From Sinorhizobium chiapasense (GTDB taxonomy: Bacteria > Pseudomonadota > Alphaproteobacteria > Rhizobiales > Rhizobiaceae), in contig NZ_CP133152.1 of the NCBI RefSeq assembly GCF_036488675.1, forward strand, positions 992,001-1,056,000: a DNA stretch of 64,000 nt. Direction: 5' to 3'. The notes under the pieces are model-generated. The model was not told the DNA's origin and made no database searches. It saw nothing but the letters and a program-made list of their open reading frames with translations. A program made the position numbers and the translations under genes. How positions within the stretch are numbered: the stretch's first letter is position 1; every line of letters begins with the position of its first letter. Shown here in pieces: positions 31,195-60,356 of the stretch.

Positions 31195-31332
31195 GCTCCC
31201 TCTCCGTCAAACGTTCCGGTTGCAGCACCGCTCAAGCGGCCTTGCCTGTCGCATGCGCGATTGACAAGGCCCCGAGAAGGTTGACAAAGTGACGCTCGAT
31301 CGAGACGGGCAGCATTGGGAGGACCTAAGTCT

Positions 31333-36789: not shown

Positions 36790-36797
36790 GACGCGCG

Positions 36798-38957
36798 ATG
36801 TTCTTCCGGCAGCTACTTGAACGGATAGGGGGGAGTCGTAGCGGCACGGTCAAACCCGATTGTTTTCGACATCCCCACCGCCTTGGCGCGATTTTTGTCG
36901 CGCTGCCGATCGTCCTCGTCCTGACCGCATTCGCAGCCCTCGGCCTCCAATGGGCGGACAAGACCTTTCCGCCGCCGCTCGATGAGGCCGACACCGTCTC
37001 GGCCGAAGTGCTGGACAAGGACGGGCGTCTGCTGCGCGCCTTTGCGACCAAGGATGGTCTGTGGCGGCTGAAAACCACCGTCGACGATGTCGACCCGCGC
37101 TTTCTGAACATGTTGATCGCCTATGAGGACCAGCGCTTTCGGGAGCACCACGGCGTCGACCCCTTGGCGCTCGGCCGTGCGGCGCTGCAGTTCGTCACAA
37201 ACGGTCGCATCGTTTCCGGCGCATCGACGCTCTCAATGCAGGTGGCAAGACTGATCGAGCCGCGCCGGGAGCGGACGCTGCCGGCGAAACTCCTGCAACT
37301 CGCACGCGCCATCCAGATCGAGCGTCGCCTCAGCAAGGACCAGATCCTCGATCTCTACCTCACCCATGCGCCCTATGGCGGCAATCTCGAAGGCGTGCGC
37401 GCCGCGAGCCTTGCCTGGTTCGGCAAGGAACCGCGCCGTCTCTCGGTCGCGGAAGCCGCGCTTCTCGTCGCGCTGCCGCAATTGCCGGAAAAGCGTCGCC
37501 CCGACGGCAATCTCGCCGCCGCCGAAGCCGCCCGCGAACGGGTTCTCGGCCGTGCGGCGGTCGCCAAGGTGATCGGTGAAGGCGAAGCGGAACGGGCGGC
37601 GTTGGCCGCCATACCGACCCGGCGCCTTCAGCTTCCGGCCCATGCGGCACATCTCGCCGAATTGGCGCTTCGCAAGGAGCCGAAGATCCTCCAGCACCAT
37701 ACGACGCTGCGTCGCGACATTCAGCGCGGGCTCGAAGCGGTTGCGCGCGAGGGAGCGGCGAAGCTCGGGCCGAAGGTCTCCGTCGCCATGGTGATGGCCG
37801 ACGTCCGGAGCGGCGAGATTGTCGGCGAGGTTGGATCGGCCGACTATTTCGACGCAAGCCGCGCCGGATGGATCGACATGACGCGGATCACCCGCTCGCC
37901 GGGATCGACGTTGAAGCCCTTCATTTACGGGCTTGCCTTCGAGGAGGGCTTGGTCGCCCAGGAAACCATCATCGAGGACCGGCCGGCGGACTTCTTCGGC
38001 TATCGCCCGCGCAATTTCGACATGAGCTATCAGGGCGACGTCAGCATCCGGCAGGCGCTGCAGCTCTCCCTCAACGTGCCGGCGATCCGGCTCCTCGACG
38101 CGGTCGGCCCCGCCCGGCTGATGGTCCGCTTCCGCCGCGCCGATGTGCGGCCTGCCCTACCGCCCAATGAGGCACCGGGGCTCGCGATCGGCCTCGGTGG
38201 CGTCGGCATCACCCTGCGGGACCTCGTTCAGCTTTACGCTGGCCTGGCCAATCGCGGCTGGCCGGTGCGGCTTGGCGACGGCATTGAGGGCAAGGCGGGC
38301 CTGATCGATGGCGAAGCCGTGCTCTCGACCGTTGCCGCCTGGCATGTCGCCGACATCCTCTCAGACGTATTGCCGCCAGCAGGCAGCCGGCAGCGCGGCA
38401 TCGCCTACAAGACGGGTACCAGCTACGGCTATCGCGATGCCTGGTCCGTTGGCTTCGACGGCCGCTACGTGCTGGGTGTTTGGGTCGGGCGCCCGGACAA
38501 CGGCGCAGTCCCAGGATTAACCGGTTACGCTGCCGCCGCACCAATCCTGTTCGAAGGCTTCGCCAAATCGGGGATCGCCATCACACCGCTGCCGGATCCC
38601 CCGGCCGGTGCCGTTCGAATTGCGCAGGCCGACCTCCCGATCAGCCAGCGGCGTTTTTCGATGACCGCGAGCGGCTTGCTTTCGGCATCGGCGCGCGAGC
38701 CGGCGCCGCAGATCGTCTTTCCGCCGGAGGGCGCCCGTGTGGAACTTGGCGCGACCACCAGTGAAACGATGATGCCGTTGACCCTCAAGTTGCAAGGCGG
38801 TCGCGCCCCGTTCCGATGGCTCGCCAATGGCCGGCCGTTGCCCGATGTCACCCGCCGGCGCACCAGCCAGTGGCTGCCGGACGGCAGTGGCTATTCCACT
38901 CTCACCGTCATCGATGCCGTCGGGCGGGCGGCAAGCGTTCGCGTTTTTGTGGAGTAA
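36798..38957 (+). CDS. pbpC: Penicillin-binding protein 1C
   Basis: Bifunctional peptidoglycan synthase of 719 residues: cytoplasmic tail, one membrane anchor (about 34-54), glycosyltransferase domain with the catalytic-site block EDQRFREHHGVDP, transpeptidase domain with nucleophile Ser370 in SPGSTLKP and the KTGT box at about 538, and a C-terminal PBP1C-specific domain from about 620. It directly follows the alpha-2-macroglobulin gene, as in E. coli and many other bacteria. Confidence 0.95.
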   Translation: MFFRQLLERIGGSRSGTVKPDCFRHPHRLGAIFVALPIVLVLTAFAALGLQWADKTFPPPLDEADTVSAEVLDKDGRLLRAFATKDGLWRLKTTVDDVDPRFLNMLIAYEDQRFREHHGVDPLALGRAALQFVTNGRIVSGASTLSMQVARLIEPRRERTLPAKLLQLARAIQIERRLSKDQILDLYLTHAPYGGNLEGVRAASLAWFGKEPRRLSVAEAALLVALPQLPEKRRPDGNLAAAEAARERVLGRAAVAKVIGEGEAERAALAAIPTRRLQLPAHAAHLAELALRKEPKILQHHTTLRRDIQRGLEAVAREGAAKLGPKVSVAMVMADVRSGEIVGEVGSADYFDASRAGWIDMTRITRSPGSTLKPFIYGLAFEEGLVAQETIIEDRPADFFGYRPRNFDMSYQGDVSIRQALQLSLNVPAIRLLDAVGPARLMVRFRRADVRPALPPNEAPGLAIGLGGVGITLRDLVQLYAGLANRGWPVRLGDGIEGKAGLIDGEAVLSTVAAWHVADILSDVLPPAGSRQRGIAYKTGTSYGYRDAWSVGFDGRYVLGVWVGRPDNGAVPGLTGYAAAAPILFEGFAKSGIAITPLPDPPAGAVRIAQADLPISQRRFSMTASGLLSASAREPAPQIVFPPEGARVELGATTSETMMPLTLKLQGGRAPFRWLANGRPLPDVTRRRTSQWLPDGSGYSTLTVIDAVGRAASVRVFVE

Positions 38958-43964: not shown

Positions 43965-45749
43965 TCAGTCGAGAAGGGCGGCGATGGCCGTCGGCACGTC
44001 CTCGCCGCGCGCGGCGAGTTCCTCGAATTCGACGACGGCGTTGATGTCGGCGCCCATGGCGATGTTCGTCACGCGCTCGAGGATGAACTCGATGACGACC
44101 GGAACCCGATGTTCGTCCATCAGCGCCCGCGCCTTGTCGAATGCTTCGGCGAATTCATTGGGGCTGCGGACGCGGATAGCCTTGCAGCCGAGGCCTTCGG
44201 CGACCGCGACGTGGTCGACGCCGTAACCCTTCTCCGCATCGCCGGAGGCATTGATGTTGTCGAAGGCGAGGCTCACCTCGAAATCCATATTGAAGCCGCG
44301 CTGCGCCTGCCGGATGAGGCCGAGATAGGAATTGTTCACGACCACATGCAGGTAGGGCAGCTTGTGCTGCGCGCCGACGGCCAATTCCTCGATCAGGAAC
44401 TGGAAATCATAGTCACCGGAAAGCGCGACGATCGGCCGGTCCGGGTCGGCCGCCCTGACGCCGAGCGCCGCCGGCAGCGTCCAGCCGAGCGGACCCGCTT
44501 GACCGCAGTTGATCCAGTTGCGCGGCTTGTAGACATGCAGGAACTGCGCACCGGCGATCTGGCTGAGACCGATGGTCGAGACGTAGCAGGTGTCGCGGCC
44601 GAAGGCCCGGTTCATTTCCTCGTAGACGCGCTGGGGTTTGAGCGGCGTCTGATCGAAGTGGGTCTTGCGCAGCATCGTGCGCTTGCGCTCGCGGCACTCT
44701 TCCGCCCAGCCCGACCAATCGCGCAATTTGCCGGCAGTCTTCCATTCGGTGGCAACGTCGAGGAAGAGCTTGAGCGCGGCTCCCGCGTCCGAGACGATGC
44801 CGAAATCCGGGGCGAAGACACGGCCGATCTGGGTCGGCTCGATATCGACATGGATGAACTTGCGTCCTTCCGTGTAGGTCGGAACGTTGCCCGTGTGACG
44901 GTTGGCCCAGCGATTGCCGACGCCGAGGACGAAGTCAGAGGCGAGCAGCGTCGCGTTGCCGTAGCGATGCGACGTCTGCAGGCCGCACATGCCGGCCATC
45001 AGTGGGTGGTCGTCCGGGATCGTGCCCCAGCCCATCAATGTCGGAATTACCGGAATCCCGGTGATCTCGGCAAATTCGACCAGCAGGTCCGAGGCGTCGG
45101 CATTGATAATGCCGCCACCCGCGACGATCAACGGCCGCTCCGCCTCGTTCAGCATGGCGATCGCCTTTTCGGCCTGCGCGCGGGTCGCCGACGGCTTGTA
45201 GGGCTCCAGCGGCGAATAGGTTTCCGGATCGAACTCGATCTCGGCGAGCTGAACGTCGACCGGCAGGTCGATGAGAACCGGGCCTGGTCGGCCGGAGCGC
45301 ATCAGGTGGAACGCCTTCTGGAAGACGAAGGGGACCAGGGCCGGTTCCATGACGGTGACCGCCCATTTCGTGACGGCACCCGCGATTGCAGCGATGTCGA
45401 CGGCCTGAAAATCCTCCTTGTCGAGGCGGGCGCGCGGCGCCTGGCCGGTGATGCAGAGGATCGGGATAGAATCGGCAGAGGCTGAATAAAGGCCGGTGAT
45501 CATGTCCGTGCCGGCCGGCCCCGAGGTGCCGATGCAGACACCGATGTTGCCGTGCCTGGCCCGCGTATAGCCTTCGGCCATATGCGAGGCGCCTTCGACG
45601 TGACGGGCGAGAATGTGGCGGATCGACCCGCGGGCCTTCAAGGCCGAATAGAACGGGTTGATCGCAGCGCCCGGAACACCAAAGGCGCAATCGATTCCTT
45701 CCTTTTCCAGAAGATAAACTGCCGCGTCGACAGCGCGCATCTTGGCCAT
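43965..45749 (-). CDS. gcl: Glyoxylate carboligase
   Basis: Thiamine-diphosphate enzyme of 594 residues that joins two glyoxylates into tartronate semialdehyde with loss of CO2. The diagnostic residue is visible: position 51 is Val ([12 protein letters not shown]) where almost all ThDP enzymes carry the activating Glu, exactly as in E. coli Gcl. The ThDP motif GDYDFQF...VVNNSYLG is in the C-terminal domain. The start follows AGGAGG. It is the first gene of a leftward operon, divergent from iclR. Confidence 0.96.
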
Positions 45750-45921: not shown

Positions 45922-46743
45922 ATGGAGTTGACGGGCAAGGGAAAGCGCGGCCGCAAGGCCGCCGAGAATGCCGCACCTTCGTCCGTGCAAGTGCTGGATC
46001 GCAGCCTGGCGCTCCTGGCGATCGTTGCCGAAAACGACGACTCGACGCTGACTTCGCTTTCCGAGCGCACCGGCATGGCGCCTTCGACCGTGCACCGGCT
46101 GCTCACCTCGCTCGCCTCCCACGGCATGGTCATGAGCGACAGCGACACGGGGGTGTGGACCGTCGGCCTCAAGGCCTTCGAAATCGGCAATGCCTTTCTG
46201 CGCTTCCGCAAGCTCGGCACGATCAGCCGCCCGTTTCTGAAGCAGTTGATGGAGGCAAGCGGCGAAACGGCCAATATCGGCATCGAGGAAGGCGGCGATG
46301 TCGTCTTCATCTCCCAGGTCGAAAGCCATGCGCCGATGCGGGCTTTCTTCCGGCCGGGGCGGCGCGGTCCGGTCCACGCCTCGGGCATTGGCAAGGCGAT
46401 CCTGTCGACCTGGTCCGACAAGGAAATCGGCCAGTTGATGTCAGGTCGGACCCTGACGCACTTTACCGAAAAGACACGCGATACGCTGCCCGGGCTGCTC
46501 CGGGACATTCAGGAAATACGGCTGCGTGGCTGGTCGATCGACGATGAGGAACACACGCTTGGCATGCGCTGCGTCGCCGCATCGATCTTCAACGAATACG
46601 GCGAGACGATCGCCGGCATATCGATCTCCGGCCCCTCGGTCCGCGTGACCGACGAGAAGCTCGCCATCCTCGGGCCGATGGTCAGGGAAACAGCCGACGC
46701 CCTGACACGCGCGATGGGCGGCAAGCGGCCGGAAGAACTATAG
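45922..46743 (+). CDS. IclR-family regulator of glyoxylate/allantoin-type catabolism
   Basis: Regulator of 273 residues: winged helix-turn-helix at about 22-85 (LTSLSERTGMAPSTVHRLLTSLASHGMV) and effector domain at about 100-265 (RGPVHASGIGKAILS, TLGMRCVAASIFN). Its AllR-like context, divergent from gcl, suggests glyoxylate as effector and repression of gcl-hyi-glxR-ttuD. A decayed copy of its 3' part lies 8 kb to the right at 54807-55050. Confidence 0.9.
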   Translation: MELTGKGKRGRKAAENAAPSSVQVLDRSLALLAIVAENDDSTLTSLSERTGMAPSTVHRLLTSLASHGMVMSDSDTGVWTVGLKAFEIGNAFLRFRKLGTISRPFLKQLMEASGETANIGIEEGGDVVFISQVESHAPMRAFFRPGRRGPVHASGIGKAILSTWSDKEIGQLMSGRTLTHFTEKTRDTLPGLLRDIQEIRLRGWSIDDEEHTLGMRCVAASIFNEYGETIAGISISGPSVRVTDEKLAILGPMVRETADALTRAMGGKRPEEL

Positions 46744-46815
46744 TCGCCGGAATGCAAATACCGGCGGCTGCGTTCATTGGCGAGCACCCCGCGGGCCGTT
46801 AATCATGCACCCGTA

Positions 46816-47772
46816 CTATGAGAGCAGTCGTGCCCATGGTTTGACCAAGGCCAGATAGACATTCATCAGCTTCTGTAGATGATCGATCACACGCTGATCA
46901 TCCAAAACCGGCACTTCGGAATGCTGACGAACCATATAGAGCGTACGGGTGAGGGCAGGCTTTATGATGCGACGGGCGACCAGTGTTCCTTCACGCACTT
47001 CTTTGGCGATCAAGCTATAGGGCATGATCATCGCCACTGTACCAAACGCGATTGAATCGATCGAATGAACTTCATGGGCAATGCGAACGTCGAGCGACAA
47101 TCTCCTGGCTTCGCTTTCGACAATATGGCGCAGAACGCCGCGTTCGCCACCAATTGCAAGGTCGTATTGCAGAGCCTCTGTAAATTCGATGTTTTCTTCC
47201 TGTGCGGCTTGGTTCGAAGCGGTGATGAACAGAAGGTCCTCTTCCAAGACGGCCGTTCGTTTCAAGCCGGACCATTCACCTACATTGTTGAGGAATGCGA
47301 CATCGACTTGTCCTGCCTCCAAAGCATGCAAAAGAGCTGGTGGTCGCTCTTCAACGACACGGACCGTGACATCTGGCATTGTTTGATCCGCATCGGCCAA
47401 GAGATCTTGGCCGAGTAGCGCTGACATTGTCCGACCGACGCCGAGCCGCAATTCAATCCGCTTGGCGGCCTTGAGCGCACGGACTTCGTTGGCTGCTTTT
47501 GCGACATCATCGAGAATATGCTGCGCATGCGTATAGAGAAGTCTACCCGCCGGGGTTGGAGTGATGCCGCGCGAATGCCGCACAAGCAATTCGATGCCAA
47601 GCTCACCTTCGAGCTGCTTGATCTGCGAGCCGAGCGCAGGTTGCGCGACGTTCAGCGTTTCGGCCGCAGCTGTCATGTTGCCAAGTTCGACAACCTTGCG
47701 GAAATAGGTCAACTGCCGAAAATTTATGTGACGTTCCTCCCAAAGTGTGACGACATTGCTCCTCGTCCGCAC
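46816..47772 (-). CDS. LysR-family regulator with unusual start
   Basis: LysR regulator with helix-turn-helix (FRQLTYFRKVVELGNMTAAAETLNVAQPALGSQIKQLE) and effector domain. Family members begin at the residue before NFRQL, but here that codon is ATA (47725-47727), with a perfectly spaced GGGAGGAA upstream. The nearest conventional start is GTG 47772, used for these coordinates (318 residues); the ATA start would give 303. No ATG is in a suitable place. It is the last gene of the catabolic cluster, transcribed in the same direction, 92 bases after the ThDP enzyme, and is its likely regulator. Confidence 0.8.
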   Translation of the reverse strand: MRTRSNVVTLWEERHINFRQLTYFRKVVELGNMTAAAETLNVAQPALGSQIKQLEGELGIELLVRHSRGITPTPAGRLLYTHAQHILDDVAKAANEVRALKAAKRIELRLGVGRTMSALLGQDLLADADQTMPDVTVRVVEERPPALLHALEAGQVDVAFLNNVGEWSGLKRTAVLEEDLLFITASNQAAQEENIEFTEALQYDLAIGGERGVLRHIVESEARRLSLDVRIAHEVHSIDSIAFGTVAMIMPYSLIAKEVREGTLVARRIIKPALTRTLYMVRQHSEVPVLDDQRVIDHLQKLMNVYLALVKPWARLLS

Positions 47773-47864
47773 TTGAGGGATCAGTTCGCCCCTTTTTACC
47801 AAGACTACGGCGCATGCGTATTTTTTCACGCATGCGCCTTTCTTGACAAGCGTCAAGCGGTTGT

Positions 47865-49664
47865 TCAACCGGTGAACTGAGTAATCGTGTCGATCAGCGC
47901 GGGAACGCCACTTTTCACTTTGGCAATGGCACGTTCCAATGCCGGGCCAATGTCCGCCGGATCCTCGATTGGGCCTTCTGCATACCAGCCGCATCCTCGG
48001 GCCAGCGTTGCGAAATCGGGGGCAGGATCAAACAGGTCCATGCCGATGTGTGCACGGCTGACCGGCGTCCCGCGCTGTTCGGCCACGGTCACCTGGTGTT
48101 CCCAATCATTATAATAGGCGCGGTTGTTGTGCATGACGCAGAGGAACGGCACTTTGTGCTTGGCGGCGAACCAAAGCGCACCGACATCGAAGAGCAGATC
48201 GCCGTCCGTCTGGCAATTGACGACGAGGCGACCGGTGCCGCGATGCGCGAGGGCGATGCCAAGGGAAATACCGATCTGTGTTCCAGGACCGAGCCCTCGG
48301 CCTGCCCAGCGATAATGCTTGTCGAAATCCCAGAGCTTGGGTGCCCAGTCCTCGAACGGGTTCGTGGTTAGGACCCAGTCCTGATGCCTGATCTTCTCCC
48401 ACACCTCGCTGGCAAGGCGCGGCAGTGTAATCGGGCTGGCATTCCAGTTCTCATGCGCTTGCTCACGCCACTTCGCGCGTTGGGCATCATGCATCCCGGC
48501 CACCGCGTGCGACCGTTCCTCTATACGCCTTGCAAGCCTTGTATCGTCCCTGGAACGTTTTGAAATCAGCGAGGTGAGCGCCGGCATTGCAAGGGCCGGA
48601 TCGGCAAGCAGCCGCTGCGAACAGTCAGGATAGCGCTGATAGTCGGCTGCCCATTTGGAAATATCGATATCGGCAAAGCCGATGTCCAGCCACTCGCACT
48701 CCTTCGGGAAAAGTGGTTGCAATGTACGGTTGATCCGGTCGTTCACATGGGTCGGTCGCTCCCAGTCCCGGCAATCGAGCAAGGTGATAAGATCGGCCTG
48801 CTTGAAGACGTCTTTGCTCATGCGCATGTCGAGTGGGTGCTCAGTCGGGAAGTTCAGGCGCCATTGCGTGTCGACGACAGGCGCACTTAGCGCTTCGGCA
48901 AGCGCGACAGTATTGGAAAAGCCACTCGGATCGCAGCCAACGTATTGCGGCAACAACACCGGCCATTCGGCCGAAACGAGGCGGTCAGCGGCTTCTTCCA
49001 GCGCTTTCGGATCGGGTGCTATGCGGCTCGGTACCGTCGCCGAAGCTGGTGACGGCAAGGTAACCGGTGCGGCAAGGGGCGCTTCCTGCAGCGCGGCATC
49101 ATAGACCATATAGATCGGACCGCGCGGCTCCGTCATCATGATCGAATAGGCGCGGGCAAAACTGTCGACGACACCGTCGATGCCACCTGGCTGGTAATCC
49201 CATTTGACGTAATCGCGCACCTGGGTGCCCTGAACATTGGCCGTATGAGCCCAATCGACACGGGGACGGCGCTTTCCTTCGTCCATCGGGCCGGTGGCGC
49301 CGATCAAGAAGACCGGCGCACGGTCAGTATAGGCGGTATAAACGCCGAGCGTCGCATGAAGCAGACCGACAACATTGTGGACGATCACGGCAAGCGGCTT
49401 ACCTGTCGCCTTGGCATAGCCATGAGCGATCTCAACAGCGATCTTCTCATGCTGACAGACCAGCATTTCCGGCTCATTGCCATTGTGGTTGACAAGCGAG
49501 TCGTGCAGGCCGCGATAACTGGCGCCTGGATTGAGTGTGATGAAGGGAAAACTGTATTGCTTGATCAGATCGGCAATCACATCGGACTGCCATCCGAATG
49601 GTGCTGAACCTTCGCTCTCCTTCAGGGCCATGGCCTTCGGGTCGACCTTCTCCTGCATCGTCAT
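47865..49664 (-). CDS. Thiamine diphosphate-dependent enzyme, acetolactate synthase/2-oxoacid decarboxylase-like
   Basis: ThDP enzyme of 599 residues with the three-domain fold of acetolactate synthase and benzoylformate decarboxylase. The activating Glu73 is present in VCQHEKIAVEIAHGYA, unlike the neighbouring Gcl. The cofactor motif is GDLLFDVGALWFAAKHKVPF...MHNNRAYYND. The sequence departs from both ALS and BFD, so the reaction (decarboxylation of a 2-oxoacid, carboligation or a C-C lyase) is not assigned. An aldehyde dehydrogenase two genes away could take an aldehyde product. The start ATG 49664 follows AAAGGAGCGG. Confidence 0.82.
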   Translation of the reverse strand: MTMQEKVDPKAMALKESEGSAPFGWQSDVIADLIKQYSFPFITLNPGASYRGLHDSLVNHNGNEPEMLVCQHEKIAVEIAHGYAKATGKPLAVIVHNVVGLLHATLGVYTAYTDRAPVFLIGATGPMDEGKRRPRVDWAHTANVQGTQVRDYVKWDYQPGGIDGVVDSFARAYSIMMTEPRGPIYMVYDAALQEAPLAAPVTLPSPASATVPSRIAPDPKALEEAADRLVSAEWPVLLPQYVGCDPSGFSNTVALAEALSAPVVDTQWRLNFPTEHPLDMRMSKDVFKQADLITLLDCRDWERPTHVNDRINRTLQPLFPKECEWLDIGFADIDISKWAADYQRYPDCSQRLLADPALAMPALTSLISKRSRDDTRLARRIEERSHAVAGMHDAQRAKWREQAHENWNASPITLPRLASEVWEKIRHQDWVLTTNPFEDWAPKLWDFDKHYRWAGRGLGPGTQIGISLGIALAHRGTGRLVVNCQTDGDLLFDVGALWFAAKHKVPFLCVMHNNRAYYNDWEHQVTVAEQRGTPVSRAHIGMDLFDPAPDFATLARGCGWYAEGPIEDPADIGPALERAIAKVKSGVPALIDTITQFTG

Positions 49665-49727
49665 GCTTTCCGCTCCTTTGGTAAGAAAATGAGCGGCGGA
49701 GGACCGCTCAACAGAGGCGTTTGCCGA

Positions 49728-50729
49728 TCAGTCTTTCTTGAGGGCGTGTTTCAAAAACTCGACCATTTCCGGCGATTGATCGAGTGCCTTCTTGACCAGA
49801 TCGGCGACTTCATCACCAACGGCCGGATCGAGCGGCAGGCCGAGCGTGTTGGCTTTGGCAATGAATTCCGGATCGGATATTGCTGCCGAATAAGCGTCCC
49901 GTAATGTCTTCAGGATGTCGCCAGGAATTCCCTCCGGACCGACGGTAAGGCGCGAGATGTCGCTCTGCGATTCAACGAGTGCAATCGCTTTTTGCGCTTC
50001 CTCGTTGTCGACCAACGTCGCCAACTGGGGAACATCGGTATCCGAGCCACCGATCTGCGCAAGGAACTTGCCATGGCCATCCTTGACGAAGGGTTCGAAG
50101 CTCGACCGCGAACTGATCACACCCTGTACTTCGCCCCGCATGATGGCGAGCTGGTCGTCATTGCCGCTGTAGCCGCTGATAACATCGATCGGCAGCTTCA
50201 AAGCGCTAACCAGGATCGTTGTGTTGACCTCCGACGCACTGCCTGTTCCCGAGGTGGAGAACTTCAGCTTCTTGTCGAGGTCCTGCAGTGCTTTGAAGTC
50301 CTTGATATTAGCATCAGCCGCTACGACAACCACGCGCGGGTCCGAGGCTGCTTTGCCGATCCACGACATCTTCGTAAGGTCGAACCTGACGCCTTCGTTC
50401 CCAGAGAGCTGGCTATAGACAAGCCCCGTGTTGAAGCTACCAATCGTTAGTCCGTCCGGCTTCGAGGCGGCGATGTAATTTGCGCCAAGCAGGTTGCCGG
50501 CCCCAGGCATGTTGCGCACGACAAAGGTCGAGCCCGGCAGGTGCTTCTGCATGAACTCGCAGACCAGTCGGCCATAGGTGTCATAACCACCGCCGGGTTC
50601 AGTCGCGATGATATAATTCACCGTTTTACCGTTGAAGTACTCTGGCCCCGATTGCGCTATGGCAATCGTCGCCCATCCACATGCAAGAAGAGCGGCACCA
50701 GCCGCGATGCCTCTCGAAAAAATGCTCAT
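49728..50729 (-). CDS. TctC/Bug-family periplasmic solute-binding receptor
   Basis: Exported receptor of 333 residues with signal peptide (GIAAGAALLACGWATIAIAQ) and Bug-family pattern (VNYIIATEPGGGYDTYGRLV, NMPGAGNLLGANYIA). These proteins bind carboxylates for TctAB-type transporters, but neither tctA nor tctB is in the window, so this is an orphan receptor using remote membrane subunits or acting in sensing. ATG 50729 follows GGGAGGAG; the frame to 50858 has no signal-like start. Confidence 0.9.
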   Translation of the reverse strand: MSIFSRGIAAGAALLACGWATIAIAQSGPEYFNGKTVNYIIATEPGGGYDTYGRLVCEFMQKHLPGSTFVVRNMPGAGNLLGANYIAASKPDGLTIGSFNTGLVYSQLSGNEGVRFDLTKMSWIGKAASDPRVVVVAADANIKDFKALQDLDKKLKFSTSGTGSASEVNTTILVSALKLPIDVISGYSGNDDQLAIMRGEVQGVISSRSSFEPFVKDGHGKFLAQIGGSDTDVPQLATLVDNEEAQKAIALVESQSDISRLTVGPEGIPGDILKTLRDAYSAAISDPEFIAKANTLGLPLDPAVGDEVADLVKKALDQSPEMVEFLKHALKKD

Positions 50730-50921
50730 TGAACTCCTCCCTTTCGCTCTACACTGTTGCCGAAAACTTCGGCAACGTGGCTGCCCAGCCAGCCAATTCC
50801 TCCAAACGACAAGCCTCCCCGGCCGCGCAGATCCAATCCAACCGCGCTGCACACTCACGTTTTTTTTCAGATGATGATGGACACGTCCTCTGCTGTGCCG
50901 CTCACCACCAGGGGCAATTGC

Positions 50922-52400
50922 TCACGACGCCATTTGCGCCCGCGCCCCGGAGAAGTGGATGCTGATGTTCTTCTCCTGTGTCGCGGCAAGGAGTTCCTCG
51001 AGACACTCCTCGCGGCCCAGACCAGACTGCTTATAGCCGCCGAACGGCGCCCCGAGCACGTGCCGGCTGGTGTTGTTTACCCAGATATAGCCGGCCTGAA
51101 CTGCCGCCGCCGTCCGATGCGCCTTTTCAAGGTCATTGGTGTAGATCGACGAGGTCAGCCCGTATTCGACGCAATTGACGTCTTTCAACATGGCTTCTTC
51201 GTCGGACCACCGGATAACCGACTGCACGGGGCCGAAGATCTCTTCCATGGCGATGCGCATCGATTGCTTCACGTCGACGAAGACCGTCGGCTCGATGAAA
51301 CAGCCCTTTGCAAGCTCCGGATCATCGGGGCGTTTACCGCCATAGACGACGCGCGCTCCCTCCCGCTTGCCGATTTCAATATACCCAAGAACGTTTTTGT
51401 AGTGCTCGCGGCTAACCAGCGACCCCATAGTCGTTGCAGGGTCGGTTGGCAGGCCGGGCTTGAAACGGCTGATATATTTGCCGATGCGCTCAACAACGTC
51501 GTCATGAATGGCATCATGCAGAAAGAGGCGACTCATCGAGCCGCAGGATTGACCGCACCAAGCGTAGTTCATGCCGCTGACTGCTGCTGCCGCAACACGA
51601 TCTGGATCGGCATCCGGAAAGGCGATGAGCGCATTCTTGCCTCCAAGCTCCAGCGCCACCTTCTTCAGAGTATCGGCTGCCGAACGCATCACCGCTCGGC
51701 CAGTCGGCACGCTGCCGACGAGCGAGACGGCCGCAATCGATGGATGCGATGACAAAACCTGGCCGAGCTCGCGACCGCCTGTCAGCACATTGAGCGTCCC
51801 GGCAGGGAAAAGCGGGCCGATCAATTCTGCAAGGCGGAGCCCTGACAGTGGCGCCTGCTCGGACGGCTTCAGGATGACGGCGTTGCCGGCGGCCAGGGCG
51901 GAGGCGATCTTGCTCGCGCAGAACTGGAATGGATGATTGAATGCCGTAATTCTGGCCACGACACCGAGCGGTTCCCTTACAGAGAAATTGACGGCATCCG
52001 GCCCGACCGGAATCGACGCTCCCTTCATCTCCGTCACGAGACCTGCAAAATATTCAAATCTTTGGACAGCCGAGACCGCATCCTTGGCCATCGGTGTCAT
52101 CGGATTGCCACCATCGACCGCATCGAGCAAAGTCAGTTCTGGCCCGTGGCGGCGAATGACGGCCGCCGCTTCCTTCATGATCTTGGCCCGCTCAAGCGGC
52201 AGGACTTTGCGCCATTCTTCAAAACCCTTCTGCGCCGCAGCAATCGCCAATTCCGCATCTTCCAAGGTCGCATCCGGAACCGGACCGAGGTCCTCGCCGG
52301 TTGCCGGGCTGATGCTCTGCGTCACTCCGCCCTTGACGGGAGCGTGCCAACCACCGCCGTAGAAGAGTGCCCGCTCCCTCGGAAAAGCGATATCTCCCAT
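50922..52400 (-). CDS. NAD(P)-dependent aldehyde dehydrogenase
   Basis: ALDH of 492 residues with catalytic Glu in LELGGKNALIAF and Cys in GQSCGSMSRLF, and a glycine-rich GSVPTGRAV. The closest classes appear to be the aromatic and betaine aldehyde dehydrogenases. The start is uncertain between ATG 52400 and ATG 52409; only 52400 has proper spacing from GGGAGG. It follows the amidohydrolase by 52 bases. It probably oxidises an aldehyde formed by the ThDP enzyme of the same cluster. Confidence 0.9.
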   Translation of the reverse strand: MGDIAFPRERALFYGGGWHAPVKGGVTQSISPATGEDLGPVPDATLEDAELAIAAAQKGFEEWRKVLPLERAKIMKEAAAVIRRHGPELTLLDAVDGGNPMTPMAKDAVSAVQRFEYFAGLVTEMKGASIPVGPDAVNFSVREPLGVVARITAFNHPFQFCASKIASALAAGNAVILKPSEQAPLSGLRLAELIGPLFPAGTLNVLTGGRELGQVLSSHPSIAAVSLVGSVPTGRAVMRSAADTLKKVALELGGKNALIAFPDADPDRVAAAAVSGMNYAWCGQSCGSMSRLFLHDAIHDDVVERIGKYISRFKPGLPTDPATTMGSLVSREHYKNVLGYIEIGKREGARVVYGGKRPDDPELAKGCFIEPTVFVDVKQSMRIAMEEIFGPVQSVIRWSDEEAMLKDVNCVEYGLTSSIYTNDLEKAHRTAAAVQAGYIWVNNTSRHVLGAPFGGYKQSGLGREECLEELLAATQEKNISIHFSGARAQMAS

Positions 52401-52452
52401 TGCTTCCATTCCTCCCACATCAGCCCGACCGCCGATCGTTGACAATTTTTCC

Positions 52453-53748
52453 TCAAAGAACGGGTTGGGTCGGTGTCGGCTCCCGCAGCGGCGGCGTGGC
52501 GGTCGAACCCGTATAATTTCCATATTTGATCAGGTACTGCCGTTGCGCCTCATTGCGTGGCTCCAGCTTGAAGAGGCGGGCCGCCGTTCCACCGATGATG
52601 TTGTGCTTCGCCTTGTCGCTTAGGAAAGGGAGATCCCAAATGGTCGACGGCAAGTCGAAATCCCAGTGAGGATAGTCCGAGGCATACATCAGCTGCGTTT
52701 CGGCATTCATCATCCGAAACGTCGTTTCCAAGGCCTGTATATCCTGGATTTCCATCGGCTGCGTGGAATAGAACATGTCCCGCATGTAGTCCGACGGCTT
52801 CTTCTTCAGAAGCGGACATTCCGATGGACGGAGCATGAATTCATGATCGAGCTTCTGCATGAGGAAGGGGATCCATGCCAGACCGGATTCAATCCAGATG
52901 ACCGGCAGCTTGGGGAAACGCTCGCCCATGCCGTTCACAACCCAGTTGGTGCAGTGCAGAATGCTGAACCAGCTAAAGCCGAGAGCATGCGCGGAAATAA
53001 AGCGGTTGCAGCTTTGGAAGGTTGAGGAGTTCCAGTTCGGCCCCGAATGGAAGGCAAGCGCAAGCCCACGCTCTTCCAGAGCCCGGTAGAGCTTCATATA
53101 GGCGTTGTCGTAGACGGCCATCTTCTCTCGGACGGAAGTGACCATGAAACCACCCACGCCCTTGCGGTCACCGAAGGTTTCCACCATGCGCAAACAGCCT
53201 TCCGGATCGCTGAAAGGCAGGCCCAGCATCGTATACATACGACCCTGCGATTCCGGCAGGACCTTCTCGGTCACCCAGCGGGCATAGGCCCAGGACAGTT
53301 CGAACTCCATCTCCTTCTGGGGATGCAGGCCGATATTCAGCATGCCCGTCGGGAAAAGGCATGAATAATCGACGCCCATTGCGTCCATCCAGCGGAAGCC
53401 GAGCTCGACATCCCGCTTCGGCCCCTTCTCGACGGGCGTCTTCTCTGACGACCGCATGGGATAACGGGTTACGCGCCCACCTATGTCCTGCCAGCCGTAG
53501 CCGACCGGCGAAATATGACCGCGTCCTTTCGTGCGGCTGGAAAGCGAGAGCTGTTTGAAGACCTCGTTTTCCATAAAGGGGATGATCTCGGAGAGGTTCT
53601 CATTCTCGTAATGATGCGCGTCGCAATCTACGATCAGCACATCTTCATATCTGCGGTCACGCGCCTGCTTGGCAGCATGATCGAGAAGCCTGGTCGTGTT
53701 CAAGTCTTCGATAGGGACGCGGCGGCCGCGATCGGAAATAAGGTCCAT
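52453..53748 (-). CDS. Amidohydrolase-2 (ACMSD-like) metal-dependent hydrolase/decarboxylase
   Basis: TIM-barrel protein of 431 residues. Metal ligands are visible: His-x-His-like DCDAHHYE near the N-terminus, His in LAFHSGPNW, and Asp in YASDYPHWD near the C-terminus. The ACMSD branch includes non-oxidative aromatic decarboxylases and C-C hydrolases, but no member with a clear biochemical role matches closely enough from memory to name the substrate. The start ATG 53748 is preferred over the frame to 53871. It lies between a protein of unknown function and the aldehyde dehydrogenase. Confidence 0.85.
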   Translation of the reverse strand: MDLISDRGRRVPIEDLNTTRLLDHAAKQARDRRYEDVLIVDCDAHHYENENLSEIIPFMENEVFKQLSLSSRTKGRGHISPVGYGWQDIGGRVTRYPMRSSEKTPVEKGPKRDVELGFRWMDAMGVDYSCLFPTGMLNIGLHPQKEMEFELSWAYARWVTEKVLPESQGRMYTMLGLPFSDPEGCLRMVETFGDRKGVGGFMVTSVREKMAVYDNAYMKLYRALEERGLALAFHSGPNWNSSTFQSCNRFISAHALGFSWFSILHCTNWVVNGMGERFPKLPVIWIESGLAWIPFLMQKLDHEFMLRPSECPLLKKKPSDYMRDMFYSTQPMEIQDIQALETTFRMMNAETQLMYASDYPHWDFDLPSTIWDLPFLSDKAKHNIIGGTAARLFKLEPRNEAQRQYLIKYGNYTGSTATPPLREPTPTQPVL

Positions 53749-53795
53749 GGTGGCTTTGCTTTCAAAGAGATTGTCTGGCTGAGGCAAGCTGCGGA

Positions 53796-54284
53796 TTATC
53801 GCGAACTCCAGCTCTGCCAGAGAGCGAACTCGAACACCTGCAGATCGACGGCTTTGAGCAGCGCACCGCACAGAACCATCGCATCGGTTGCCGTCACCAT
53901 CGTCTGCTCGCTGAGCACGTCGAAATGATTGCCTCGTTCGTCATTTGCCGCGTAGAGCCGGCAAAGCGCGCTCATAAGCGCCTGCTGTGCACGAACATCG
54001 ATGCGGCCAGGATCATCGGCGGAAACCGCCGCCTCGATCTCGGCCGCCACCGCCAGCATCGAAGCAGACAACTTATGGAGAGGCTGAGATTCAGGCGATG
54101 GTTGCGCCGGGATCCGGCGCAATAGCTCCACCTGCGGCGCTGCTGCCTCACCCTGCTTTTTGCGCTCCACGATCCGCGCCGCTTCGGTTCCCGATTCGAT
54201 GCCTTTGAAAACAGCCTTCACGAAGGCGACCTTTTCCGCCGCATCGGGTTCACAGGCCGAGATCATGCGTTCAGACGACGACAT
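53796..54284 (-). CDS. Protein of unknown function in the catabolic cluster
   Basis: Helical protein of 162 residues that I do not recognise. The start ATG 54284 has an excellent GGGGGAGG six bases upstream and overlaps the Rieske gene by 14 bases, indicating coupled translation. It contains no signal peptide or membrane segment. Residues 105-162 form a probable helical bundle with two Cys (SALCRLYAAND and AMVLCGALLKAV) and an aromatic tail (VFEFALWQSW). It may be an accessory subunit of the Rieske protein or amidohydrolase. Confidence 0.7.
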   Translation of the reverse strand: MSSSERMISACEPDAAEKVAFVKAVFKGIESGTEAARIVERKKQGEAAAPQVELLRRIPAQPSPESQPLHKLSASMLAVAAEIEAAVSADDPGRIDVRAQQALMSALCRLYAANDERGNHFDVLSEQTMVTATDAMVLCGALLKAVDLQVFEFALWQSWSSR

Positions 54285-54636
54285 AGATATCCTCCCCCTT
54301 CTGCAAGACTTGATATTTGCGCAAGCGGACTCTGCGATCGGCAATGTGCTGGCCGGTGCGCATATCGTATTCATAGCCATGCCAGGGACAGGCGAAGCTC
54401 ATGTCCTTCTCGGAAAAGAAGAGACCCATTGATGTCTTGTCAGGTCGCAGGCGCTCCTCGACCCGCGCGATAATCAGCCCTTCGCAAGCCGGACCACCCT
54501 GGTGAACGCAGTAATTGCTATAGGCGAAAAAATCGCCCTCGTGCCTGAACACGCCGATTTCATCATCGCCGATCCGAATGATCCGCCGTTCACCGTCCTT
54601 GAATTCGAACGACTTACAGACGTATTGCTCGCCCAA
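54271..54636 (-). CDS. Rieske [2Fe-2S] ferredoxin-like protein
   Basis: Small Rieske protein of 121 residues. Ligands are Cys43-x-His45 in YCVHQGG and Cys83-x-x-His86 in CPWHGYEYD. The spacing of about 37 residues between the two ligand loops is longer than in most biphenyl-dioxygenase-type ferredoxins. The start is TTG at 54636 with AAGGGAGG about seven bases upstream. A Rieske ferredoxin normally feeds an oxygenase, but no oxygenase subunit is nearby, so the partner is missing, remote or is a protein not recognised as one. Confidence 0.87.
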   Translation of the reverse strand: MGEQYVCKSFEFKDGERRIIRIGDDEIGVFRHEGDFFAYSNYCVHQGGPACEGLIIARVEERLRPDKTSMGLFFSEKDMSFACPWHGYEYDMRTGQHIADRRVRLRKYQVLQKGEDIYVVV

Positions 54637-54673
54637 AATTGACCTCCCTTGACCTCATGCTTTGGAGCACCGT

Positions 54674-54817
54674 TCATTTGCCGACATACTCGGCTTTGCT
54701 GCGGTACTCTGTTGGGCGCAGCATTCGACGGCGCCGCCGTTGCGTCCAGAACATTCGCTTTAGCTTAGCGATAGCTTTTTCTTTGGTCTGCGGTAGGCTT
54801 TTGAATTTATTGGGCAA
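54674..54817 (-). pseudogene. Basic ORF truncated at the cluster's right junction
   Basis: An open frame of up to 47 codons (TTG 54817, internal ATG 54754) ends at TGA 54674, 37 bases before the Rieske gene on the same strand. It encodes a Lys/Arg-rich peptide ending in LRPTEYRSKAEYVGK. It has no clear ribosome site and stops being open where the iclR remnant begins (about 54807). I read it as the 3' end of a foreign gene cut at the junction; a short leader peptide is the alternative. Confidence 0.35.
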
Positions 54818-55050
54818 TTACAGAGAGTTCCAGCTTCGGGCGCACGTCTATCCGCGAATATGAAGACGGTCCTTGCCGGTGCACAGCTCTCCTTCAAGCC
54901 GCAAAAAATATCGGGTGACAGTCGCCGGCATATCGATGTTGGCCTTTCCGTAGAGATGACGGATGGAAAGCCCGCTATCGGCGGCTGATGGCGCGGGAGA
55001 CCGCCGACGCCTTGACCGGTGCCGCAAGCGGCAAGCGGCCGGAACACAAG
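54807..55050 (+). pseudogene. Remnant of a second iclR gene (3' part)
   Basis: Conceptual translation in three frames gives pieces aligning in order with the C-terminal 80 residues of the intact IclR protein (45922-46743): LLGNYREFQLR against LLRDIQEIRLR, VAGISM against IAGISI, SVEMTDGKPAIGG against SVRVTDEKLAILG, and MARETADALTGAASGKRPE against MVRETADALTRAMGGKRPE. Frameshifts and stops separate them. It has the same orientation as iclR and ends 34 bases before the guaD stop. Confidence 0.8.
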
Positions 55051-55083
55051 TCCCGGCCGGCACGGTTGTTTTCAAGATCGGGA

Positions 55084-56433
55084 TCAGGCCGTTTCAAACA
55101 TCCTCGCCGGAGAGGCGGTCATAGGCGCCTCGCGGGCACCGCGCTTCATCGGCTTGCCGGCGACATAGACTTCGGCCACCGAGCGATCGTCACCCATCGT
55201 CTGCAGGATAAAAAGCTCCTCGACCAGCGACGAGGCCACTTGCATCCGTAGCTCCATTGCGGGCTTCGCGCGGCTGTCGAGAACCACGATGTCCGCATCC
55301 GCACCGACATGCAGTGAGCCTATCGAATGTTCAAGCTCGAGCGCGCGGGCATTACCCAGCGTCATCATGTAGAACGAGTTGAGCGGCGACAGCCGCTGGC
55401 CCTGCAGATGCAGCACCTTGTAGGCCTCGTCCATGGTCTCCAGCATCGAGAAACTCGTTCCGGCGCCGACATCGGTGGCAACCGAATAGCGGGCGCCGAG
55501 CCTGTCGAAACGATCGCGGTCGAACAATCCGCTGCCGAGGAAGAGATTGGATGTCGGGCAGAAGACGCCGACCGCTCCGGTCTCGGCAAGCACGGAGATC
55601 TCGCGGTCGCTCAAGTAGATGCAATGGCCGAGCAGCGTCTTGCGACCGAGAAGATCATAGCGCGCGTAAATATCCGTGTAGTCCTTCGCCTCCGGATAGA
55701 GCGAAGTCGCGAAGGCGATCTCGTCCTTGTTTTCCGAAAGATGCGTCTGGACGTAACAGTCGAGATGCTCCGCCACGAGCGCCTGGCTCATCTCCATCTG
55801 CTCAGGCGTCGAGGTAATGGCGAAACGCGGGCTGATCGCATAATGCGCCCGGCCACGGCCATGCCACTTGTCGATCAGTCGCTTGGTCTCGTCGTAACCC
55901 TTCTGAGGCGTGTCGCGCAGTGCATCCGGCGCGTTGCGGTCCATCATCACCTTGCCGCCGACCATCAGCATGTTGCGCGCCTCGGCCGCGTTGAAAAAGG
56001 CGTCGACGCTTTCCGGATGCACGGAACAGTAGGCAACCGCCGTCGTCGTGCCGTTGGCGAGCAATTCGTCCATGAAACGGCTGGCGATGAAGGCGGCGTG
56101 CTCGGGCGCTTGGAATTTCTGTTCCTCGACGAAGATGTAGGTGTTCAGCCACTCCAGAAGCTGAGCGCCGTAGGAGGCGATCGCCTGCGTCTGCGGGAAG
56201 TGCAGATGCGTATCGATGAGACCGGGCAGGACGAGATGGGGACGATGGTCGGCGACCGTTGCGCCCTCGCCGGCCTGTTTCGCGACATCGCCATAGGCAC
56301 CGATACCAGCAACCTTACCGTTCCGGACAAGCACGGCGCCATCCTCGAAAAAGCGGTAGGAGGCCGTATCGTCGATGCCCTCGGGCTCCCTGACGAAGGT
56401 CAGCACCCGGCCGCGGATCAGCAACTCACTCAT
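55084..56433 (-). CDS. guaD: Guanine deaminase
   Basis: Amidohydrolase-1 enzyme of 449 residues that deaminates guanine to xanthine. The metal motif PGLIDTHLHFPQ has His76 and His78; later ligands are in TLLGHCIYLSD and the Asp in SVATDVGAGTSFS. The length and TQAIASYGAQLLEWLNTYIFVEEQKF segment are those of GuaD. It overlaps the puuD stop by four bases, so guanine breakdown is coupled to urate oxidation. Confidence 0.94.
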   Translation of the reverse strand: MSELLIRGRVLTFVREPEGIDDTASYRFFEDGAVLVRNGKVAGIGAYGDVAKQAGEGATVADHRPHLVLPGLIDTHLHFPQTQAIASYGAQLLEWLNTYIFVEEQKFQAPEHAAFIASRFMDELLANGTTTAVAYCSVHPESVDAFFNAAEARNMLMVGGKVMMDRNAPDALRDTPQKGYDETKRLIDKWHGRGRAHYAISPRFAITSTPEQMEMSQALVAEHLDCYVQTHLSENKDEIAFATSLYPEAKDYTDIYARYDLLGRKTLLGHCIYLSDREISVLAETGAVGVFCPTSNLFLGSGLFDRDRFDRLGARYSVATDVGAGTSFSMLETMDEAYKVLHLQGQRLSPLNSFYMMTLGNARALELEHSIGSLHVGADADIVVLDSRAKPAMELRMQVASSLVEELFILQTMGDDRSVAEVYVAGKPMKRGAREAPMTASPARMFETA

Positions 56434-57908: not shown

Positions 57909-58823
57909 ATGTCTTATCTCGATAATGTGCGCGTTTTCGTGCGTGTCGTGGAACTCGGAACGTTGTCGGCGGCAGGGCGCGACCAGCGCGTGACGCCTGC
58001 GGTCGCCAGCAACCGGATCAAGGAGTTGGAGCGGCATATGGGTGTTCGCCTCTTCAACCGCACAACCCGCAAGCTGACGCCGACCGAGCACGGCCGCGTC
58101 TTCTACGATGGCGCGATCAAAATTCTGGAAGCCGTGAACGAGGCCGAAAGCGCCATCGCCGATCTTTCGCGCAATCCGAAGGGCGCGCTTCGCATCACCG
58201 CGCCGCTCGGCATTGGCCGTCGGCTGATTGCCTCCGGGATTCCGGAATTCCACGACAAATATCCGGATATCGAGGTGCGCCTGCGCCTCTCCGACCACAA
58301 TGTCGATATCTTGAGCGAAGGCGTCGACGTCGCGTTCAAGCTCGGCATTCTGGAGGATTCGAACTTGCGCATGCGCGGCATCATGAACTGCGAGCGGGTG
58401 GTCTGCGGCGCCCCCGCCTATTTCGAGCAGCACGGCACACCGGCTACTCCCGACGAGCTCATCACCGACCATCACGACTGTCTGCTGCTGCGCTATCCCG
58501 GCTCCAAGGAATATTACTGGACGCTGCAGACGACCGACGGTGTGCGCAAGTTCGAGGTGACCGGCCCCTACGATTCCGACGACGGCGACGTGCTGACGCA
58601 GTGGGCGCTCGATGGCCGCGGCATCATCAACAAGCCGCTTTTCGAGGTGAAGCAGTATATAAACGAGGGCGCCCTGATCCCGATCCTGCAGGATGCGCCG
58701 CCGCTTAGCGCGCAGCTCGCCGCGATCTATCCGCACAAGCGCTTCCAGGACCCGAAGGTGCGGTTGATCATCGACTTCATGGCCGAACGCTGTCAGAGGC
58801 TGATCGGCAGGATGCTAACGTGA
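57909..58823 (+). CDS. LysR-family regulator
   Basis: LysR regulator of 304 residues with an N-terminal helix-turn-helix (TLSAAGRDQRVTPAVASNRIKELERHMGVRLFNRTTRKLTPTE) and a periplasmic-binding-protein-like effector domain. It is divergent from puuD across a 240-base gap and could regulate urate catabolism, although it may equally be self-contained. A 204-base segment of a close paralogue lies at 59633-59836. Confidence 0.9.
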   Translation: MSYLDNVRVFVRVVELGTLSAAGRDQRVTPAVASNRIKELERHMGVRLFNRTTRKLTPTEHGRVFYDGAIKILEAVNEAESAIADLSRNPKGALRITAPLGIGRRLIASGIPEFHDKYPDIEVRLRLSDHNVDILSEGVDVAFKLGILEDSNLRMRGIMNCERVVCGAPAYFEQHGTPATPDELITDHHDCLLLRYPGSKEYYWTLQTTDGVRKFEVTGPYDSDDGDVLTQWALDGRGIINKPLFEVKQYINEGALIPILQDAPPLSAQLAAIYPHKRFQDPKVRLIIDFMAERCQRLIGRMLT

Positions 58824-58908
58824 CATTTAGCGGGTGATTTTCCGCCGACCTACTGCAGCGACCTTTGTCCGTTTGAAAAGACACGGCGCTGTAGCTGGAT
58901 TCAAGAAA

Positions 58909-58942: not shown

Positions 58943-58999
58943 AAATGGTCTGTACGTTAACGATCAATCACGGTTTGTCGGATTTACTCGGGTACGCCG

Positions 59000-59287
59000 T
59001 CAGTCATCCTCATCATCATCTTCGTCATCGTCGTCATCGTCGTCATCTTCGTCATCGTCGTCATCGTCATCATCGTCGTCATCGTCATCTTCGTCTTCGT
59101 CATCATCATCCTCGCGCTCACGATGATTGCGACGCTCGCCTTCACGAACGCGCTCGCGATGCCAATCACGGCGGCCTTCACGGTCGCCTCTCTCGCGTTT
59201 CTCACCGGCTTTGGCGATATCTATCGCGGATGGTGCCACCAGCGCTAATGCCGTCGAAAGAATAAGAATGCGTCTTAGCTTGTTCAT
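59000..59287 (-). CDS. Secreted Asp-rich acidic protein
   Basis: Protein of 95 residues: a signal peptide (LRRILILSTALALVAPSAIDIAKA), a charged middle rich in Arg and Glu (KRERGDREGRRDWHRERVRE), and a C-terminal tail of about 36 almost uninterrupted Asp/Glu residues to the stop. The tail is encoded by mixed GAT/GAC codons in a trinucleotide tract. Such polyacid tails bind divalent cations. The signal peptide is clearly paralogous to that of 59994-60356, which argues the reading frame is real. Confidence 0.65.
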   Translation of the reverse strand: MNKLRRILILSTALALVAPSAIDIAKAGEKRERGDREGRRDWHRERVREGERRNHREREDDDDEDEDDDDDDDDDDDDDEDDDDDDDDEDDDEDD

Positions 59288-59632
59288 TGCGCCCTCCGTC
59301 GTGATTTCCCATGATTAAAAGACCAGCGGACTTGCGCCCGCCGCGAGTACGCTTGAACTTAAAGCAACAAGTTTACCGAAAACAACCTGCACAATTTATT
59401 CAAAGATAACGCTTGGATTGTACATCATTTGGTCCCGGCGTTTTTTAGTTTATCTTTATGACAAATCTAATTTGTACATCGCCGGACACTGCGCGCTTGC
59501 GATAAATGCTATATTTGCACTCGCTAATTTAGCATCATGAAGGTGAAGGAGAAACAACCCAAAAGGGTTATGCACCGCATTCTAATCGTTCAAAAATGTA
59601 CCCATATTGGTTGATCCCAACCGCACGCCCCC
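59288..59632. other. AT-rich intergenic region upstream of the Asp-rich gene
   Basis: No gene is supported. The stretch is distinctly AT-rich (59380-59540 most of all) and should contain the leftward promoter of the acidic gene; it ends at the LysR fragment. A small palindrome AACCC-AAAA-GGGTT occurs near 59557-59570. Confidence 0.6.
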
Positions 59633-59838
59633 CAGCTAGCGCCGACCGAGCACGGCCGAGTCTTCTACGACGGCGCCGTCAAGATTCTCGAAGCCGTGAA
59701 CGAGGCCGAAAGCGCCGTCGCCGATCTTTCCCGCAATCCCAAGGGCGCGCTTCGCATCACTGCGCCGCTCGGCATCGGCCATCGGCTGATTGCCTCCGGC
59801 ATCCCGGAGTTCCACGACAAATATCCGGATATCGACGC
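59633..59838 (+). pseudogene. LysR gene fragment, about 92% identical to 58072-58275
   Basis: By hand alignment about 17 of 204 bases differ from the LysR gene. The fragment is open throughout, encodes residues corresponding to about 55-123 (PTEHGRVFYDGA...IPEFHDKYPDID), and runs into a stop two codons after the homology ends. It has no start or DNA-binding region. Most differences are at third codon positions, so it diverged as a coding sequence before truncation. Confidence 0.85.
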
Positions 59839-59993: not shown

Positions 59994-60356
59994 TCAGCGA
60001 TTACTGTCGGTCTTGCCGGATTTGCCGGGCACGCCGTCATTGCCGCCGTTGCCGAAGCCGTTGTTGCCCTTCGGGCCCTTGCCGCCGCCGTCACCGTCTC
60101 CGTCTCCGTCGCCATCACCGTCACCGTCTCCGTCGCCATCACCGTCACCATCACCGTCGCCGTCGCCGTCGCCGTCTCCGTCACCATCACCGTCGCCGTC
60201 TCCGTCACCGTCGCCATCGCCACCTGTCCCGGTGTCGTCGGCCTTCGCAACATCGATCGTGAACGGAGCAGCGAATGCCGCCAGCAATGCTGCCGCCGTG
60301 GAAATGGTGAGAATACGCCGCAGTTCATCTACTGTATCTTCGCTGTTTTTATCCAT
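59994..60356 (-). CDS. Secreted Gly-Asp repeat protein
   Basis: Protein of 120 residues with a signal peptide (LRRILTISTAAALLAAFAAPFTIDVAKA), about 22 consecutive Gly-Asp dipeptides, and a C-terminal Gly/Asn-rich tail (GPKGNNGFGNGGNDG). The repeat is encoded by a hexanucleotide tract at about 60090-60220, prone to length change. The alternating acidic repeat suggests calcium or cation binding outside the cytoplasm, but it does not match the RTX nonapeptide. It is paralogous to 59000-59287 through the signal region and terminator. Confidence 0.68.
   Translation of the reverse strand: MDKNSEDTVDELRRILTISTAAALLAAFAAPFTIDVAKADDTGTGGDGDGDGDGDGDGDGDGDGDGDGDGDGDGDGDGDGDGDGDGDGDGGGKGPKGNNGFGNGGNDGVPGKSGKTDSNR

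Follow-up and report, generated by a model that had tools for sequence, protein, structure and literature searches.

How did a block of seven predicted catabolic genes come to stand between an intact iclR regulator gene and the guanine deaminase gene guaD, and what might it do there? The locus lies in a 64,000-nucleotide stretch of Sinorhizobium chiapasense DNA (contig NZ_CP133152.1, positions 992,001 to 1,056,000 of the forward strand, assembly GCF_036488675.1), which we call the window and which is part of a 1.63-Mb contig in a genome of 6.87 Mb. An initial annotation, made from the sequence alone, had proposed that the block was inserted horizontally into a purine/glyoxylate locus, damaging or replacing one of two iclR copies. 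We hold, with modest confidence, that the block was inserted into the iclR-guaD spacer, was inherited together with its flanks and encodes an oxidative pathway. The insertion itself is ordinary; the part worth testing is a conserved cassette of three genes, which encode a Rieske ferredoxin, a small protein that we call orfX and an amidohydrolase-fold protein.

The comparison of filled and empty sites carries the argument. In a sample of 33 genomes of the genus, guaD matches of at least 85% and a best iclR match of at least 75% identity were found in every genome. The block's amidohydrolase is present at 96% protein identity or more in four of them (G000, G015, G029 and G032, hereafter the carriers), and only remote relatives, at no more than 29% identity, occur in five others. 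From the iclR stop to the guaD stop is 8340-8419 bp in the four carriers and 50-51 bp in seven other genomes (G009, G017, G025, G026, G027, G028 and G031). Each of these seven empty sites has a single iclR and a spacer that, in the alignment, shows nothing of the block; only together with the block did we find an additional iclR 3' end. Seven plasmid records of Ensifer adhaerens were compared as well, and in all of them the two genes are uninterrupted, with about 80-112 bp between the BLAST match ends; these records were among the matches listed by both plasmid searches, several are near-identical, and other Ensifer and S. chiapasense records were left out. Whole-block matches in the plasmid search came from two records, S. 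mexicanum pEmeITTGR7c and S. terangae pCB3126_1, both carriers. The synteny comparison that the initial annotation had suggested thus gave an uninterrupted iclR-guaD order in seven of 33 genus genomes and in every E. adhaerens record compared, and the cluster, which it had said should be found in the same place in most relatives if insertion were wrong, is there in four of 33. The supposed pair of ancestral iclR copies has to be dropped, as each empty site has one; the site originally had a single iclR, and the extra 3' end would be a by-product of the insertion.

The initial annotation had correctly described the genes from 46816 to 54636, of which there are seven, as all running leftward, with the intact iclR (stop at 46743) on one side. 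From left to right the locus comprises gcl, iclR, the block (LysR, thiamine-diphosphate enzyme, TctC, aldehyde dehydrogenase, amidohydrolase-fold protein, orfX, Rieske ferredoxin), a decayed iclR 3' end and guaD. A urate-oxidase-like gene lies beyond guaD and, together with gcl, iclR and guaD, makes 'purine/glyoxylate locus' a fair name. The features are as follows:

43965..45749, minus strand: gcl, glyoxylate carboligase, left flank (TIGR01504, 1198.9 bits)
45922..46743, plus strand: intact iclR-family regulator, BhcR/IclR/AllR-like (PF01614, 153 bits)
46571..46765, plus strand: left copy of the duplicated iclR 3' end with downstream bases (73.6% over 197 nt against the right copy of carrier locus L001, the match that sets its extent)
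46816..47727, minus strand: LysR-type regulator, LysR-like part only (PF00126 and PF03466)
47865..49664, minus strand: thiamine-diphosphate-dependent enzyme, benzoylformate decarboxylase/acetolactate synthase-like (PF02776, PF02775)
49728..50729, minus strand: TctC-type solute-binding protein (PF03401, 65 bits)
50922..52400, minus strand: aldehyde dehydrogenase (PF00171, 485 bits)
52453..53748, minus strand: amidohydrolase-fold protein, nearest solved structures TruffO/SfbO/AibH1H2 (PF04909, 71 bits; PDB sequence and fold matches)
53796..54284, minus strand: orfX, 162-residue protein of an undescribed family (conserved in alignment A1)
54271..54636, minus strand: Rieske [2Fe-2S] ferredoxin (PF00355, 53 bits)
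54922..55044, plus strand: decayed iclR 3' end, right copy (72% over 125 nt against 46610-46734), running on its right side into the iclR-guaD spacer
55045..55083, no strand: native iclR-guaD spacer, left edge approximate (alignment of four filled and seven empty sites)
55084..56433, minus strand: guaD, guanine deaminase, right flank (NF006679, 657 bits)

The intact iclR scores 339 bits against the BhcR model NF045644, slightly below its cut-off of 350. The LysR open reading frame (ORF) opens at 47994, within the end of the neighboring gene, and 47727 is a provisional start. For the thiamine-diphosphate enzyme, the top PDB match (4q9d, benzoylformate decarboxylase) covers residues 28-278 only, and none of the 25 NCBIfam matches listed is above its cut-off.

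The second line of evidence is the decayed iclR end itself, which we refer to as the scar. A BLASTN search of the right end against the window returned a sole non-self match, 54922-55044 to 46610-46734 (72% over 125 nt, E 1e-11), so the iclR-like remnant in the same orientation reported at 54807-55050 is real iclR. Its left edge did not hold up, BLASTN finding no similarity to iclR in 54807-54921. Among the direct repeats listed for the region, none is longer than the one that these copies form (62 nt at 76%, with a spacing of 8310 and the same orientation). At the S. mexicanum locus (L001) and at that of G029 (L086), the window's iclR end is matched by the right copy at 73-74% over 197-209 nt, beginning 173 nt before the iclR stop and extending beyond it; the right copy of S. 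terangae (L002) gave no BLASTN match at E 1e-8 and is visible in the alignment only. Read in three frames, the scar is frame-shifted or interrupted by stops in all four carriers. Aligning the four filled and seven empty sites, we see that the right copy adjoins the native iclR-guaD spacer in every carrier, and that the sequence downstream of the intact left iclR differs from that spacer. By alignment score the remnants are closest to the iclR ends of the 11 genomes with filled or empty sites, and 19 other iclR loci of the genus score lower. An uninterrupted site in relatives and a direct repeat at the filled site are both present, as an insertion with flanking duplication of the 3' end of the target gene would leave them. 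The scar illustrates one way to place an accessory pathway next to a regulator gene that stays intact.

Other signs of mobility were sought at the site. No integrase, transposase or recombinase was found in the ten ORFs searched, and between 40000 and 60000 there was no Rfam match at gathering threshold, to a tRNA or otherwise; a transposon, prophage or integrative mobile element was rejected on these grounds. No long terminal inverted repeat was found, the 13 inverted pairs listed being 18-34 nt long and the longest (34 nt at 71%) internal.

Some repeats and genes elsewhere in the window deserve mention in their own right. A 208-nt direct duplicate at 91% (58066-58273 and 59628-59835) repeats a piece of a LysR gene at 57909-58823, 1.56 kb away, which places a second truncated regulator copy less than 5 kb from the iclR scar; the G009 locus (L087) has a second match to 58055-58828, 775 nt long at 89%. 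Short imperfect tandem repeats with 9- and 12-base steps occupy 58995-59117 and 60046-60246. At 31315-38957, a bacterial alpha-2-macroglobulin (an 1824-residue ORF) is followed by a penicillin-binding protein with a BiPBP_C domain, a known gene pair.

Was the insertion recent? Between carrier pairs, block genes are 90.4-98.9% identical and five flank segments 90.1-95.0%, and G015 pairs with G029, and G000 with G032, in the quartet tree of the block as in those of the two flanks. As the block is about as diverged between carriers as its flanks, the insertion looks old, not recent. The aldehyde dehydrogenase gene is 98.7% identical between G015 and G029, compared with 94.5-97.8% for the other six block genes, a hint of local exchange between these two species.

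As for composition, the initial annotation's hand counts of 29, 32 and 34 G+C in the 60-base rows at 47041, 48661 and 52921, against 44 at 44161 in gcl, are exact. Averaged over all such rows, the cluster's 130 have 34.5 G+C and the window's other 927 have 37.3. Block G+C is 57.5%, whereas 80 half-overlapping 7.8-kb blocks sampled from the same contig average 61.5%, and three of them are as low. Relative to 231 sampled ORFs of at least 250 codons, LysR ranks at the 1st percentile for G+C at third codon positions (GC3); the remaining block genes, six in all, fall at percentiles 30 to 47, and gcl, iclR and guaD rank at the 92nd, 93rd and 80th. The GC3 contrast between block and flanks is therefore real, yet six of the seven block genes are ordinary for the replicon, LysR alone standing out in codon usage. 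A recent foreign insertion with aberrant codon usage, as the initial annotation might lead one to expect, is rejected on the mid-percentile GC3 of these six genes and on the similar divergence of block and flanks.

Where the block came from is a separate matter. Its patchy distribution, with nearest relatives outside the genus, suggests a horizontal origin for which we name no donor; of the earlier proposal, insertion is the part that stands as most likely. No counterpart of the entire block was seen beyond the four carriers in a search for donors. Among the matches listed in a scan of named genomes, the best amidohydrolase is about 81% identical, in a Hyphomicrobiales metagenome-assembled genome, and the best thiamine-diphosphate enzymes outside the carriers (80-81%) belong to G381 and Phyllobacterium; these best relatives of the two proteins sit in different clusters. 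The Hyphomicrobiales locus L094 combines LysR (50%), Rieske (76%), orfX (48%) and amidohydrolase (80%), and the 17 kb examined there hold no relatives of the thiamine-diphosphate enzyme or aldehyde dehydrogenase. G381 has TctC (61%) and the thiamine-diphosphate enzyme (79%) without the rest of the block, a LysR gene there being 30% identical. A TctABC and thiamine-diphosphate cluster of Phyllobacterium zundukense (NZ_CP104971.1) resembles the block in TctC (65%) and the thiamine-diphosphate enzyme (81%) and differs from it in that tblastn over 19.7 kb finds nothing related to Rieske, orfX, amidohydrolase or aldehyde dehydrogenase. Because the Phyllobacterium cluster holds the one set without the other, the Sinorhizobium block looks like two modules joined. 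Amidohydrolase relatives at E <=1e-60 occur in six of 297 genomes sampled from the family; one of these is the window's own genome, and identity in the remaining five is 49-57%.

From these sites we infer both a direction and a crossover mechanism. In an ancestor shared by a small group of Sinorhizobium, recombination in the iclR 3' end would have brought the block into the 50-bp iclR-guaD spacer, with the second 3' end supplied either by incoming DNA that carried one or by duplication on entry. The left iclR would thereby have stayed whole, and decay would have affected the right-hand 3' end, the one attached to the native spacer. Thereafter the block would have been passed down with its flanks, one lineage gaining or losing it by exchange around iclR.

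That lineage is represented by the sisters G031 (empty) and G032 (filled), a natural presence/absence pair for gain versus loss. They are 98.4-100% identical in four flank segments other than iclR. Within iclR they differ at 30 of 822 sites (3.6%), compared with 76 of 5500 on the left (Fisher p 2.6e-5) and 8 of 3850 on the right (Fisher p 1.7e-16), although iclR is not unique, another left-flank block about 3 kb from its stop reaching 15 differences in 200 sites. In the right-flank tree the carriers group with G031 (support 0.972), which they do not in the left-flank and iclR trees. Since the sisters differ both in the presence of the block and by 3.6% within iclR, exchange around iclR is likely, and the data fit equally well whether G032 gained the block or G031 lost it or had it replaced. 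It is conceivable, though we think it unlikely, that the block arrived at least twice, reaching G000, G015 and G029 by descent and G032, once it had split from G031, by allelic exchange via iclR and guaD. The excess of iclR differences and a differing spacer between otherwise near-identical flanks would agree with this, as would the sequence after the intact iclR in G032, which departs from that in the other three carriers. Against separate arrivals, the G032 block is about as distant from the other three as its flanks are, no closer donor is found among the 33 genomes, and the same numbers fit exchange in G031.

The polarity of the change needs the same scrutiny. We take the uninterrupted order to be ancestral for the 11-genome group, with room for doubt: in the remaining 22 of 33 genomes the best iclR and guaD matches are distant or on separate contigs, which weighs against our reading. 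Were the block ancestral to the whole group, the seven empty sites would be clean deletions between the iclR 3' repeats. Direct-orientation repeats do flank the block, recombination between them would restore iclR and its spacer, and G031 lacks the block that its sister has; yet several independent losses would be required, the compared E. adhaerens records are uninterrupted as well, and the empty spacers retain nothing of the block. Ancestral presence therefore seems improbable, more so than separate arrivals, and derived insertion into the glyoxylate/purine locus is the most likely history.

What the block encodes we infer, substrate and order of steps included, from its gene families. TctC would capture a small carboxylate, and the amidohydrolase-fold enzyme would serve as a metal-dependent hydroxylase that receives its electrons from the Rieske ferredoxin. 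A keto-acid intermediate would then be cleaved or decarboxylated to an aldehyde by the thiamine-diphosphate enzyme, and the aldehyde oxidized by the aldehyde dehydrogenase. A Rieske-fed hydroxylase opening carboxylate catabolism is our best guess, and one product of the block is probably an enzyme that uses oxygen and has an unusual fold. When solved structures are ranked by Z score, AibH1H2 takes six of the first ten rows, TruffO three and SfbO one (38.7 to 34.9), PtmU3 is eleventh (33.5) and decarboxylases start at 31.7; in a PDB sequence search the top five distinct sequences are TruffO, SfbO and AibH. D41, D43, H45, H234, E287, D358 and H361 are invariant in 33 homologs and are candidate metal-site residues, the last three being present in all four printed alignments with solved structures. 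The enzyme could instead be a non-oxidative decarboxylase or hydrolase of the ACMSD or LigW kind, with the ferredoxin serving something else. We regard this as unlikely, given that TruffO, SfbO and AibH fill the first five distinct sequences, that with PtmU3 they fill the first 11 fold rows, and that a Rieske gene stands beside the amidohydrolase gene in 64 of 80 loci.

These 80 loci are the best of at least 587 candidates in the scan of named genomes; the set leans to close relatives, and some loci share one genome, for which reason the Fisher value computed for orfX and Rieske genes is smaller than it should be. orfX was detected in 46 of the 64 Rieske-bearing loci and in none of the other 16; detection was by similarity or C-terminal motif, and misses may be false. 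Matches to the thiamine-diphosphate enzyme and aldehyde dehydrogenase among these loci are partly generic relatives (23-58%). The orfX family carries a C-terminal motif with consensus VFELGMWQSW, conserved in alignment A1 (32 sequences), in which starts were chosen automatically, making N-terminal ends unreliable. The window's orfX protein has no Pfam or NCBIfam match, and the 32 members of A1 hit nine Pfam families, one member each (E 0.004-0.06), which we take as chance. Its structure model is modest (predicted local distance difference test 77, predicted template modeling score 0.53), and Foldseek found no fold match for it in the PDB at E up to 10, which is not proof of a new fold. The cassette points to an enzyme class in which a small protein would be a putative partner. 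A bolder proposal is that the three proteins form an undescribed three-component oxygenase, with orfX an obligatory small partner (a coupling or docking subunit) of a single-chain hydroxylase, and that the block comes and goes at iclR via the 3' repeats; as a whole we offer this only tentatively, and doubt it more than we believe it.

Similar gene sets are found elsewhere. Plasmid units of Neorhizobium petrolearium, Thioclava, Phaeobacter, Mesorhizobium and Aminobacter all have a Rieske gene, a small hypothetical gene and an amidohydrolase gene adjacent, the small protein being detectably orfX-like in three of the five (26-39%). Their amidohydrolases are 45-54% identical to that of the block; partner genes differ and the Aminobacter order is reversed, whereas the N. 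petrolearium unit, like the block, also has thiamine-diphosphate enzyme and Tct transporter genes. Among proteins of solved structure, the block's amidohydrolase is nearest by fold to SfbO and TruffO (PDB 8sm6, 8sm7, 8sm8 and 8sm9) and to AibH1H2, the hydroxylase of 2-aminoisobutyric acid monooxygenase (PDB 6m1w and 8fun). In contrast to AibH1H2, the block has one amidohydrolase gene, with neither a second subunit gene nor a reductase gene, and between its amidohydrolase and ferredoxin genes lies that of the small helical orfX.

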